Shown piece after piece: positions 19,684 through 47,979 of a stretch of DNA of 64,000 nt; the first letter of the stretch is position 1; every line of letters begins with the position of its first letter. The position numbers were made by a program, and so were the translations under genes. The stretch comes from Fusobacteriales bacterium. GTDB lineage: Bacteria; Fusobacteriota; Fusobacteriia; Fusobacteriales; Fusobacteriaceae. A model generated the notes under the pieces. It was not told the DNA's origin. It saw nothing but the letters and a program-made list of their open reading frames with translations, and searched no databases. The stretch lies in assembly GCA_020063625.1 (NCBI GenBank), contig JAICDD010000013.1, positions 1 through 64,000 on the forward strand. Reading direction: 5' to 3'.

Positions 19684-20760
19684 ATGAATATAAATATACT
19701 TGATATTCAAAAAAAATATGAAAACAATTTTAGTGAGTATGAAAAATTTGCAAACTTTTTAAAAGAACGTTTAAATTATCTCTTTTTAATTAATAATTTT
19801 ACTCCTGCAAAATTTGAAACTCGAGTTAAATCTATAAAAAGTTTTATTAAAAAAGTTGAAAAAAAATATCCTAAATACAAAGATCCTTTTCATGATGTTA
19901 CTGATATTATAGGTCTTAGAGTTATCACTTATTACAACACTGAAATTGATGATGTTGTAAAAATATTAAAAGATAATTTTGAAATAGATTATGAAAATTC
20001 TTCTGATAAAGAAAACCTTTTAGAGTATGATAAAATGGGATATATCTCTGTACATTATGTATGTAAATTTGCTGATAATAATACTATTTATCCTTATAAA
20101 TTTGAAGTTCAAATAAGAAGTTTACTCCAACATGTATGGGCATCGATCGACCACAAACTTCGATACAAAACATATGTAGAAATCCCAAAAGAAATAAAAA
20201 GAAAACTTTTTAGACTTAGTGCTCTTTTAGAAGTTGCTGATAGTGAATTTGCAAGTATCAAGGAAGAGATAGAAATGCTTAAAAAATTTTATGAAAATAA
20301 TTTTGATAATAAAAAATATAATCTTCGTATTGATATTTCTTCTATTAACTATTATTTAAAATATAATAATGAGCGTATTAAAAATATTTCAAAAAATTTT
20401 AATATTGAAAGATTTAAATCTTTTGAAACAGCAAAATCAGATAATTTAGAAAGAAAACTTTTACATTTTTCATTAAAAACAAACAAACATTTTATTTATG
20501 ATTTAGACAATTTTTTAACTACTATTGAATCAAATCAAAACTTAATAATTGACTTATTAGATGATGAAATCATTAAAAAATTGACTATAATGATTAATTC
20601 TAGTTGCTCTTTTTTAATTGCTTTTATTATTTTAATTGATTTAGAAATTGATAGAGTAAAAAAAATATTAAATCTTACAGAAAATCAATTATTAAAAATA
20701 TTAAAATTAAGAGAAATTTTAAATTCTTTAAATTGTAGAGATATTATTATAAAAAAATGA
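19684..20760 (+). CDS. RelA/SpoT-domain alarmone synthetase-like protein with C-terminal extension
   Basis: 358 residues. Residues ~1-190 form a RelA/SpoT nucleotidyltransferase (ppGpp synthetase) domain: KSIKSFIKKVEKKYP, the acidic DITDLIGLR-type motif seen as DVTDIIGLRVITYY, YISVHYVCKF, and EVQIRSLLQHVWASIDHKL. There is no HD hydrolase, TGS or ACT domain, so it resembles a small alarmone synthetase. About 160 further residues of mostly helical, Ile/Asn/Lys-rich sequence of unknown role follow. It starts 12 bases after the LacI-type gene, and its stop abuts the next start. Synthetase activity is inferred from the conserved motifs. Confidence 0.88.
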   Translation: MNINILDIQKKYENNFSEYEKFANFLKERLNYLFLINNFTPAKFETRVKSIKSFIKKVEKKYPKYKDPFHDVTDIIGLRVITYYNTEIDDVVKILKDNFEIDYENSSDKENLLEYDKMGYISVHYVCKFADNNTIYPYKFEVQIRSLLQHVWASIDHKLRYKTYVEIPKEIKRKLFRLSALLEVADSEFASIKEEIEMLKKFYENNFDNKKYNLRIDISSINYYLKYNNERIKNISKNFNIERFKSFETAKSDNLERKLLHFSLKTNKHFIYDLDNFLTTIESNQNLIIDLLDDEIIKKLTIMINSSCSFLIAFIILIDLEIDRVKKILNLTENQLLKILKLREILNSLNCRDIIIKK

Positions 20761-20761
20761 G

Positions 20762-21232
20762 GTGAGAAAAATAGATAAAAAAAATATATACGAAAATATT
20801 ATAACTTTTATAGAAGGATTAATTTCTGATGAAAAAAATTATATTGCTAATCTTGCAAATATATCTGCTATTCTTTTTGAAAATCTTCCAAATTTAAATT
20901 GGGCAGGTTTTTATCTATATGATGGAAAAGAATTAGTTTTAGGCCCTTTTCAAGGAAAATACGCTTGTATTAGAATCCCTCTTGGAAAAGGGGTATGTGG
21001 AAATAGTGCAAAAGATAGAAAAACTTATATTGTTGATAATGTACATGAATTTGATGGACATATTGCATGTGATTCTGCTTCAAATTCTGAAATAGTTGTT
21101 CCTATTGTAAAAAATAATCAATTAATTGGTGTTCTTGACATTGATAGCTATGAATTTTCAAATTTTGATGAAACTGATAAAATATATTTAGAAAAAGTCG
21201 TTGAAATATTTTTACAATATAGCGAAATTTAA
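20762..21232 (+). CDS. msrC: Free methionine-(R)-sulfoxide reductase (GAF domain)
   Basis: 156 residues forming a single GAF domain. The enzyme reduces free Met-R-sulfoxide using a catalytic disulfide relay. NLNWAGFYLYDGKELVLGPF, YACIRIPLGKGVCGNSAKD and HIACDSASNSEIVVP contain the conserved cysteines of this family. The start is GTG at 20762, directly after the previous stop; the ribosome binding site is weak, so re-initiation is probable. Confidence 0.93.
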   Translation: MRKIDKKNIYENIITFIEGLISDEKNYIANLANISAILFENLPNLNWAGFYLYDGKELVLGPFQGKYACIRIPLGKGVCGNSAKDRKTYIVDNVHEFDGHIACDSASNSEIVVPIVKNNQLIGVLDIDSYEFSNFDETDKIYLEKVVEIFLQYSEI

Positions 21233-21263: not shown

Positions 21264-21272
21264 TGGTATAAT
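21264..21272 (+). promoter_or_regulatory. Extended -10 promoter before the leader ORF and corA
   Basis: TGGTATAAT is a TGn-extended -10 box about 36 bases before the leader ORF start. No good -35 is visible at 17 bases; TTTACA at 21251 is too close. Confidence 0.55.
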
Positions 21273-21307
21273 AATTATATAAATCTTTAAAAAGGAGTGT
21301 GTTTAAT

Positions 21308-21355
21308 ATGGATTGTTTTAATTGTGATGATGATTCCAAGTACAAGCCCCCATAA
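21308..21355 (+). CDS. Putative 15-residue leader peptide upstream of corA
   Basis: The ORF encodes MDCFNCDDDSKYKPP. It starts with ATG 10 bases after AAGGAG (21292-21297), so it is as well equipped for translation as a real gene. It lies 29 bases before the CorA-family gene. The peptide has three consecutive Asp and ends Pro-Pro just before the stop. The last six sense codons (TCC AAG TAC AAG CCC CCA) include several G/C-ending ones that are rare in this genome. Acidic and proline stretches destabilise or stall ribosomes, and the Salmonella/E. coli mgtL leader uses this to sense Mg2+. A similar role here is an inference. No terminator hairpin is visible between leader and gene. Confidence 0.6.
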   Translation: MDCFNCDDDSKYKPP

Positions 21356-21384
21356 TATCTTATTAACACAAGGAGGAAAAAAAT

Positions 21385-22314
21385 ATGGTAAAATTTTACA
21401 AAAGAGAAAATAATGAATTAATTGAAGTTAAAAGCTTAGCAAAAAATGATACTCTAATAAAAGTAGTTAATCCCTCATCAGACGAGACACATATGCTTTC
21501 AAGTCTTTTAAACTTTGATCCAGATTTTATAAATGATTCATTAGATGATGAAGAAAGAGCGCGTATAGAGGTTGATGAAGATACTATTCTTATTATTTTA
21601 AAAGTCCCTATAAAAAATGAAAAAAATGAAAAAATACCTTATAAAACAATTTCATTAGGAATTATAATAGGCGTTAATTATGTTTTATTTGCTACAAAAT
21701 ATAAAATAGAATTTTTAGAAAAAATGATTGAAAAAAATCTATTAAATCCTAATAAAAAAAGCAAAATGATTTTTGAAGTTTTCTTTGAAAATTCAAAATT
21801 ATTTTTAAATTATTTAAAAGAGATAAATAAAAAAATTGATGCTTCAGAAGAAGAATTACATAATTCTATGCGAAATTATGAATTAGAAACTTTAATGTAT
21901 CTTGAAAAAAGTTTAGTTTATTTCACAACATCATTAAGATCAAATGAAATTATGATGGAGAAACTATTACGTGGAAAATTATTAGAATTATATGAAGAAG
22001 ACCAAGAACTTCTTGAAGATTCTTTAATTGAAAATAAACAAGCTATTGAAGTAACTAATATTTATAGTAATATCTTATCAGGGATGATGGATGCATATGC
22101 TTCTGTAATTTCAAATAATTTAAATATTGCTATGAAAGTACTAACAGTTGTAACTATAATTCTTCAAATACCTACAATTATAACAAGTTTTTATGGGATG
22201 AATGTGAAATTACCACTTCAAGAATCACCATTAACTTATATAGGAATTATATCTTCATCAATTATAGCTATGTTTCTTATATTTTTATTATTTAAAAGAA
22301 AAAAATGGTTATAA
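21385..22314 (+). CDS. corA: CorA-family magnesium/divalent cation channel
   Basis: 309 residues. CorA proteins form pentameric inner-membrane channels for Mg2+ or related divalent ions. The long N-terminal cytoplasmic alpha/beta domain and stalk helix precede two C-terminal membrane helices. The signature YGMN stands between them (TSFYGMNVKLPLQESP), and the basic end FKRKKWL matches the family. AGGAGG precedes the start. The short leader ORF upstream and the extended -10 promoter suggest its expression responds to a translation-linked signal. Confidence 0.94.
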   Translation: MVKFYKRENNELIEVKSLAKNDTLIKVVNPSSDETHMLSSLLNFDPDFINDSLDDEERARIEVDEDTILIILKVPIKNEKNEKIPYKTISLGIIIGVNYVLFATKYKIEFLEKMIEKNLLNPNKKSKMIFEVFFENSKLFLNYLKEINKKIDASEEELHNSMRNYELETLMYLEKSLVYFTTSLRSNEIMMEKLLRGKLLELYEEDQELLEDSLIENKQAIEVTNIYSNILSGMMDAYASVISNNLNIAMKVLTVVTIILQIPTIITSFYGMNVKLPLQESPLTYIGIISSSIIAMFLIFLLFKRKKWL

Positions 22315-22385: not shown

Positions 22386-22425
22386 AAAGAAGTCAAACTA
22401 TTAAGAATAATAGTTTGACTTCTTT
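22386..22425. terminator. Bidirectional rho-independent terminator
   Basis: An 18-bp stem (22386-22403 with 22408-22425, core AAGTCAAACTATTA) with A and T runs on both sides. It separates convergent corA (+) and the chemoreceptor gene (-). Confidence 0.92.
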
Positions 22426-47883: not shown

Positions 47884-47979
47884 CTATTTATTTTTAGAAG
47901 CAATTGATAAACAAACTCCAAATCCACCCCATAAAACTACCATACTAAATATTGCCATAATTATAGAACTATTACTCAT
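47884..47979 (-). CDS. MetS-like small subunit of an NSS-family amino acid transporter
   Basis: 31 residues: MSNSSIIMAIFSMVVLWGGF then GVCLSIASKNK. It is one membrane helix with the WGG motif shared by MetS-type small subunits of methionine/alanine NSS importers. The ATG at 47979 is 8 bases after AAGGAG; an ATG 6 bases upstream is too close to that site. It lies 18 bases after the symporter stop and before a terminator. In Corynebacterium MetS is required for MetP transport, so a similar partnership is expected here. Confidence 0.8.
   Translation of the reverse strand: MSNSSIIMAIFSMVVLWGGFGVCLSIASKNK

Follow-up and report, generated by a model that had tools for sequence, protein, structure and literature searches.

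A putative acidic leader ORF before corA in a Fusobacteriaceae genome, and early-Asp leaders before corA and mgtE in Fusobacteriota and Bacillota

The window, the whole 64 kb stretch of DNA analysed here, carries a very short open reading frame (ORF) just upstream of a gene for a CorA-type Mg2+ channel. Is this ORF a regulatory leader of corA and, if so, how would it act? The channel gene (21385–22314, plus strand) encodes 309 residues, matches PF01544 (E = 1.8e-52; 178.9 bits, passing the gathering cut-off of 27), and contains the YGMN motif; its match to TIGR00383 (E = 2.4e-35) lies under that model's cut-off. A bidirectional intrinsic terminator-like hairpin at 22386–22425, found in the terminator scan, closes the corA unit. 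Upstream of the unit, a gene for a RelA/SpoT-domain protein (19684–20760) is directly followed by a gene for a GAF-domain protein (20762–21232).

The ORF, MDCFNCDDDSKYKPP, occupies 21308–21355 on the plus strand. It starts with ATG at 21308, contains 15 sense codons, and stops with TAA at 21353–21355, 29 nt before the corA ATG at 21385. An extended Shine–Dalgarno (SD) sequence, AAAGGAGTG (21291–21299, plus strand), precedes it, and the core of this sequence, AAGGAG (21292–21297), is 10 nt 5' of the ATG. The sequence thus bears out the preliminary description of this locus, which reported an SD-led 15-codon ORF ending 29 nt before corA. The same description gave the ORF a promoter of its own. 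An extended -10 promoter-like box, TGGTATAAT, can be read directly at 21264–21272 (plus strand), but no good -35 element accompanies it, and a promoter scan of this AT-rich stretch gives 16 promoter-like matches, compared with 19.4 expected from shuffles. Therefore, a promoter belonging to the leader is plausible, but its prediction does not exceed chance. The sister species (G001) has TGATATAAT before its mgtE leader, placed as TGGTATAAT is in the window.

The encoded peptide is acidic, with Asp2 and a further run, Asp7-Asp8-Asp9 (21326–21334, plus strand), that is a candidate ribosome-destabilising stretch; its D/E/P content is matched by 4% of background small ORFs. The peptide also has CFNC, a Cys-x-x-Cys motif. 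Proline is present at positions 14 and 15 only, and the proline at positions 3–6 seen in MDxGP or MDxYP is absent. The end of the ORF, Ser-Lys-Tyr-Lys-Pro-Pro (21335–21352, plus strand), is written in rare codons. In particular, codons 10–14 are TCC (2% of synonyms in the genome), AAG (6%), TAC (9%), AAG (6%), and CCC (2%), followed by CCA. The remark that a run of G/C-ending codons is unusual for this genome is correct, and 14-codon windows as rare as that of the leader make up 2.4% of gene windows.

SD-led small ORFs outside genes are very rare in the window. In its 7,983 non-coding nt, beside 58 genes, there are two such ORFs of 6–60 codons, the corA leader and 47884–47979 on the minus strand. 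The latter matches MetS and encodes a 31-residue MetS-like small subunit of an NSS transporter (NF033493, 41 bits, above cut-off). In the 1.79 Mb genome (56 contigs, ~94% complete assembly), the pattern AAGGAG-N7-13-ATGGAY has 13 occurrences, mostly true gene starts. Given an SD-led ORF, a match at Asp2 alone is expected by chance in ~4% of cases (8/222). A second candidate of the same genome, L164 (MDLIWPLKTHKMQYH), sits in a flagellin-like stretch and hence is no leader. Several tandem flagellin-like genes or fragments lie there (L164 and L175, contig 26 of G000), which is unexpected for Fusobacteriota. Members of this phylum are usually described as non-motile.

Conservation of the ORF among relatives, a check proposed in the preliminary description, is not supported. 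A search of 61 genomes of the family with the leader DNA yields no homologous leader and matches only AT-rich promoter and SD segments, and the sister species is without CorA. Ilyobacter polytropus belongs to this family, as 3 kb of G025 are 100% identical to a plasmid record of that species, which places the window genome in Fusobacteriota. The window genome has two CorA genes, and MgtE is not detected in it; the sister species has MgtE. The two species thus appear to differ in their sets of Mg2+ channels. The other CorA gene of the window genome (L001) and 30 genes of its subfamily have a Met-Asp leader in 0 of 31 cases. The nearest CorA proteins to that of the window are ~50% identical, come from Thermotogaceae MAGs, and have no leader; the window CorA groups with leaderless Thermotogaceae CorAs in the CorA tree. 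Leader presence is clustered on this tree (9 changes, compared with 22.6 in shuffles), but at least 7 changes are needed, indicating that leaders have been gained, lost, or replaced often. The window leader may thus be an independent acquisition. Past Met-Asp, it has no clear sequence in common with the leaders described below.

Leaders that start with Met-Asp recur before corA genes of relatives. In one Fusobacteriaceae genus, all seven species with a homologous CorA have MD[TP]xS... leaders (MDTYSLCYKKI, MDTYSPWN..., MDPYSWWNNNKKKY, MDTYSWWNNKKN, MDTYSLCSKNI, and MDTSSLCSNMT). The corA leader of G006 is MDGSQKLSVRKR, and its start, AAAGGAGTG-N8-ATGGA, is identical to that of the window. AAAGGAGTG is also 5' of the leader ORFs in L006, L034, L078, L081, L083, L086, L090, and L096. 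The SD-led corA leaders of Clostridia and relatives read MDEGPS..., MDEGPG..., MDVGPSYRR..., MDSGPEH..., and MDGAPCYKC..., and those of Bacilli are acidic and proline-containing (NEPDP, NEPEP, DPGP). When distinct small ORFs led by an SD are counted in the 400 nt upstream of homologous corA genes, 18 of 40 have Asp2; for such ORFs in other parts of these loci the figure is 8 of 222 (Fisher 3e-11). [DE]x0-2P within the first 15 residues is found in 18 of 40 compared with 15 of 222 (1e-8), both tests treating related genomes as independent. The strict SD list omitted leaders with a weaker SD (L054, L062, L084), so the leader counts are lower bounds. The leaders of L083 and L086 differ by two synonymous and zero nonsynonymous changes.

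Helices are also predicted in corA leaders. In genus g7, all seven species preserve 100% of the pairing in an anti-SD helix, with covariation not above column shuffles, and an overlapping alternative helix shows compensatory change, with 6 cells changed on both sides (0/500 shuffles). In Bacillota, a strong helix between the leader SD/start and the leader end is present in L035, L049, L067, L078, L081, L090, and L096 (z -3.2 to -7.1). The M-box riboswitch RF00380 lies directly before corA in 10 of 80 named relatives, and in L035, L067, and L098 (by eye also in L054, L062, and L084) an M-box is followed by an SD-led acidic/Pro leader, so that two Mg2+-related controls are stacked before the gene.

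Similar leaders precede mgtE, the gene of an unrelated Mg2+ channel family. Of the 30 MgtE loci of the phylum, 12, spread over three genera, have MD[ST]YP[KQ]... leaders, with MEAGP in one (in Fusobacteriaceae, L182, L183, L186, L187, L193–L197, L200, L204, and L205). Their proline codon is CCC in 8 of 8 loci examined, although CCC is rare there (2–9%), and their N-terminal codons vary synonymously (GAC/GAT, TAT/TAC, CGC/CGG). The pattern SD + ATGGAYNNNTAYYCC occurs in 25 places in 98 genomes phylum-wide, compared with 4 for a reversed control pattern; 18 of the 25 are directly before mgtE (12) or corA (6), the downstream gene being assigned from its coordinates and in three cases also from the protein it encodes. 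Psychrilyobacter-like matches (L219–L221) are ordinary starts of a ThiF/MoeB-like gene and are discarded.

In the mgtE leaders, the segment 5' of the mgtE SD can pair with the leader end or with the SD, and the two pairings are mutually exclusive. When the segment is folded in isolation, pairing with the leader end has the lowest energy in 7 of 8 leaders; when the 5' arm is blocked, the SD-sequestering hairpin is predicted instead. In a whole-leader model with a ribosome near the start or at codon 5, SD accessibility rises from 0.18 to 0.81 in L183, from 0.17 to 0.61 in L204, and from 0.17 to 0.51 in L194. The same model gives no rise in L182 and L187, and L195 reaches only 0.29. The MD[ST]YP leaders with SD-sequestering hairpins would lend themselves to experiments better than the leader of the window.

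The sister species has an SD-led 19-codon ORF, MNRYIRAIIPSKLNYYFLR (L206:873–932), 19 nt before mgtE. Its start is not Met-Asp. Rare CCC-TCC codons of this ORF are predicted to pair with the mgtE SD, the modelled accessibility of which is 0.02 without a ribosome and 0.74–0.82 with a ribosome at codon 8 or at the stop. On this model, translation of the leader would turn mgtE on. The sign of the leader effect is therefore not to be taken as fixed across the set, and leader ORFs seem to be a feature of Mg2+ channel genes in the genus of the window.

Is the window ORF a functional leader at all? It might be a chance ORF, an AT-rich intergenic stretch in which an SD-like sequence and a short frame coincide without function. 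It has 15 codons only and no conserved homologue, and its RNA fold is less stable than shuffles (z +1.45). However, SD-led small ORFs are very rare in the window, a run of rare codons is not expected of AT-rich drift, and the start and second codon agree with those of leaders likewise placed before related genes. We consider a chance origin unlikely. The recurrence of early-Asp leaders before corA and mgtE indicates that the set is tied to Mg2+ transport, and the window leader has in common with this set the SD, the Met-Asp start, the rare C-rich codons, and the short gap. Thus, the view of the ORF as a genuine leader in an Mg2+ context is supported in that Fusobacteriaceae and Bacillota repeatedly have early-Asp leaders, often with Asp...Pro and C-rich codons that are rare, upstream of corA and also mgtE, and it is weakened in that the window ORF is itself not conserved and is without an SD-sequestering switch. 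On balance, we judge with good confidence that the ORF is a functional leader and hold a link to Mg2+, read from sequence comparison, to be fairly likely.

How could the leader act? The corA SD, AAGGAGG (21370–21376, plus strand), is predicted to be mostly accessible (0.64–0.69 without a ribosome), and its pairing with the window leader is at chance level (duplex z +0.44 and +0.52). A helix noticed by eye, in which 21361–21370 would pair with the start region of the leader, is not above shuffles (z +0.78) and was dropped. An Rfam search of the window locus gives no family over threshold, although the gamma-proteobacterial corA motif may be absent from Rfam, and no M-box RF00380 reaches the gathering score at the locus. 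By these models, the window leader is without the SD-sequestering switch of its relatives. As the corA SD is mostly open and the pairings are at chance, control by the ribosome itself would be the most economical mechanism for this member. Given that switch hairpins are absent, its mode of action is one that we infer, including its translation, its Mg2+ dependence, the sign of its effect, and steric occlusion as opposed to RNA refolding.

Transcription would start near 21279, and the leader would be translated first. At ample Mg2+, ribosomes would clear Asp7–Asp9 and slow at the rare codons and Pro-Pro, and the leading edge of the terminating ribosome would come near the corA SD (21370), limiting 30S loading. 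At low Mg2+, ribosomes would stall at the acidic residues or leave the mRNA there, the corA SD would be free, and more CorA would be made. In E. coli, acidic runs near the beginning of a peptide destabilise the ribosome (PMC11282234). The occlusion route in particular is possible but doubtful for the window leader.

A generic translation-coupling ORF would instead deliver ribosomes to corA at any Mg2+ level. The gaps of 17–35 nt before several corA genes fit such a role, as does the predicted opening of the buried mgtE SD by leader translation in the sister species. The window corA SD, however, is strong by itself and not buried, so coupling is not needed, and the acidic and rare codons would impede ribosome delivery; coupling of this kind is improbable here. 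The rare codons could also be read as the sensor. As in mgtL, CCC-CCA, with its +1-shift-prone CCC-C, would depend on m1G37 tRNA made by the Mg2+-dependent TrmD, and low Mg2+ would stall or shift ribosomes at the leader end. CCC is used although it represents 2% of Pro codons in the genome, the mgtE leaders share this codon in 8 of 8 loci, and m1G37-dependent Pro codons contribute in mgtL, the mgtA leader ORF, to the Salmonella Mg2+ response (PMC6335274). On the other hand, C-rich codons may serve RNA pairing: the CCC of mgtQ acted via a stem and not as a Pro codon (PMC8092293), and CCC-TCC in the sister species pairs with the SD. As the corA leaders of genus g7 mostly lack an early Pro as well, we think codon-specific sensing rather improbable.

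Ribosome-based control linked to Mg2+ is also to be weighed against a response to another signal, such as a different divalent metal bound through Cys-x-x-Cys, cysteine supply, or a translation inhibitor. Some CorA relatives carry metals other than Mg2+, and the window peptide has CFNC and a single Pro-Pro at its end. But Cys-x-x-Cys is not typical of the set, being absent from most of its leaders, and the relatives of the leader precede mgtE and follow M-box riboswitches, which makes a non-Mg2+ signal distinctly improbable. Transcriptional attenuation in place of initiation control is least probable of all: mgtL and corL use Rho (PMC11552253) and 21335–21372 is C-rich and G-poor for the genome, but the scan finds no intrinsic terminator between leader and corA, the untranslated gap is only 29 nt, and ribosomes that dropped off early would leave the C-rich stretch uncovered, so that corA would fall at low Mg2+, which is the wrong sign.

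We therefore favour, by a little over even chances, the reading that the window ORF is translated, regulates corA as its leader, and belongs by function with the acidic/Pro leaders that Fusobacteriota and Bacillota have ahead of corA and mgtE. Because like mini-genes stand before Mg2+ channel genes of two unrelated families, the window mini-gene probably helps to tune Mg2+ uptake via its translation by ribosomes. The evidence is stronger for the leader set as a class than for the window ORF. More tentatively, Met-Asp leaders may form a widespread and apparently undescribed set that controls both corA and mgtE, Mg2+ channel families unrelated to each other, in Fusobacteriota and Bacillota. Some of these leaders lie behind an M-box, and the window leader would be a minimal, structure-free member that works by ribosome drop-off or occlusion alone. 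For enterobacteria, there is documented sensing of Mg2+ by way of ribosome stability during translation, and the leaders described here suggest a general, repeatedly used coupling of ribosome function to Mg2+ import. They raise the questions of whether such acidic/Pro leaders arose on many occasions and why, in some genes, an Mg2+ riboswitch is stacked on a possibly Mg2+-sensitive leader.

How do these leaders compare with known systems? The preliminary description, which took an Mg2+-sensing leader for corA in this lineage to be new, overstated the novelty, as the corA genes of Salmonella and E. coli are under the control of corL (PMC11552253), and mgtQ controls mgtB (PMC8092293). In the open-access literature, to which our search was confined (subscription papers being outside its scope), corA or mgtE leader ORFs of Fusobacteriota or Bacillota are not described. 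Reports of the corA RNA motif, which is related to corL, are confined to gamma-proteobacteria (PMC6429828), and the published mgtE motif is limited to Thioalkalivibrio (PMC11109978).

The Salmonella leader mgtQ, an 8-codon ORF before mgtB with Asp2, Glu5, and a CCC Pro codon (PMC8092293), resembles the window leader in being a very short SD-led ORF before an Mg2+ transporter gene, with Asp2 and CCC. It resembles the fusobacterial mgtE leaders in its mutually exclusive anti-SD hairpins and its logic of a switch by SD exposure (PMC8092293). It differs from the window leader in being enterobacterial, within an operon, and before a P-type ATPase gene, whereas the window leader has no SD-sequestering hairpin and has its Asp run at positions 7–9. 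Both mgtL and mgtQ act via acidic/Pro codons (PMC11282234, PMC8092293). The former, found before mgtA in E. coli and Salmonella (PMC11282234, PMC6335274), is an acidic/Pro leader like that of the window, and its EPDP motif recurs as NEPDP/NEPEP in the corA leaders of Bacilli; its Rho-dependent termination and long structured leader are not seen in the window. Like the window ORF, corL (PMC11552253) is a leader ORF of a corA gene, and corL is itself Mg2+-dependent, but it has few acidic/Pro codons, starts with UUG, and is Rho-dependent with alternative stems. The M-box RF00380 also exerts Mg2+ control on corA leaders and stands in tandem with leader ORFs in L035, L067, and L098, but it is an RNA aptamer and is absent at the window locus. 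In Mycobacterium, the target of M-box control is a conserved uORF in which a Pro is conserved as well (PMC12810186). Arrest peptides of the RAPP type (PMC12992588) share with the window peptide an end in Pro-Pro; they regulate protein-localisation genes, whereas the window peptide ends in KYKPP and has no RAPP or RGPP motif. Leader control of corA in enterobacteria is thus already known from corL, and what appears to be new, judged by the open-access literature, is that Fusobacteriota and Bacillota have such leaders too, ahead of mgtE as well as corA.
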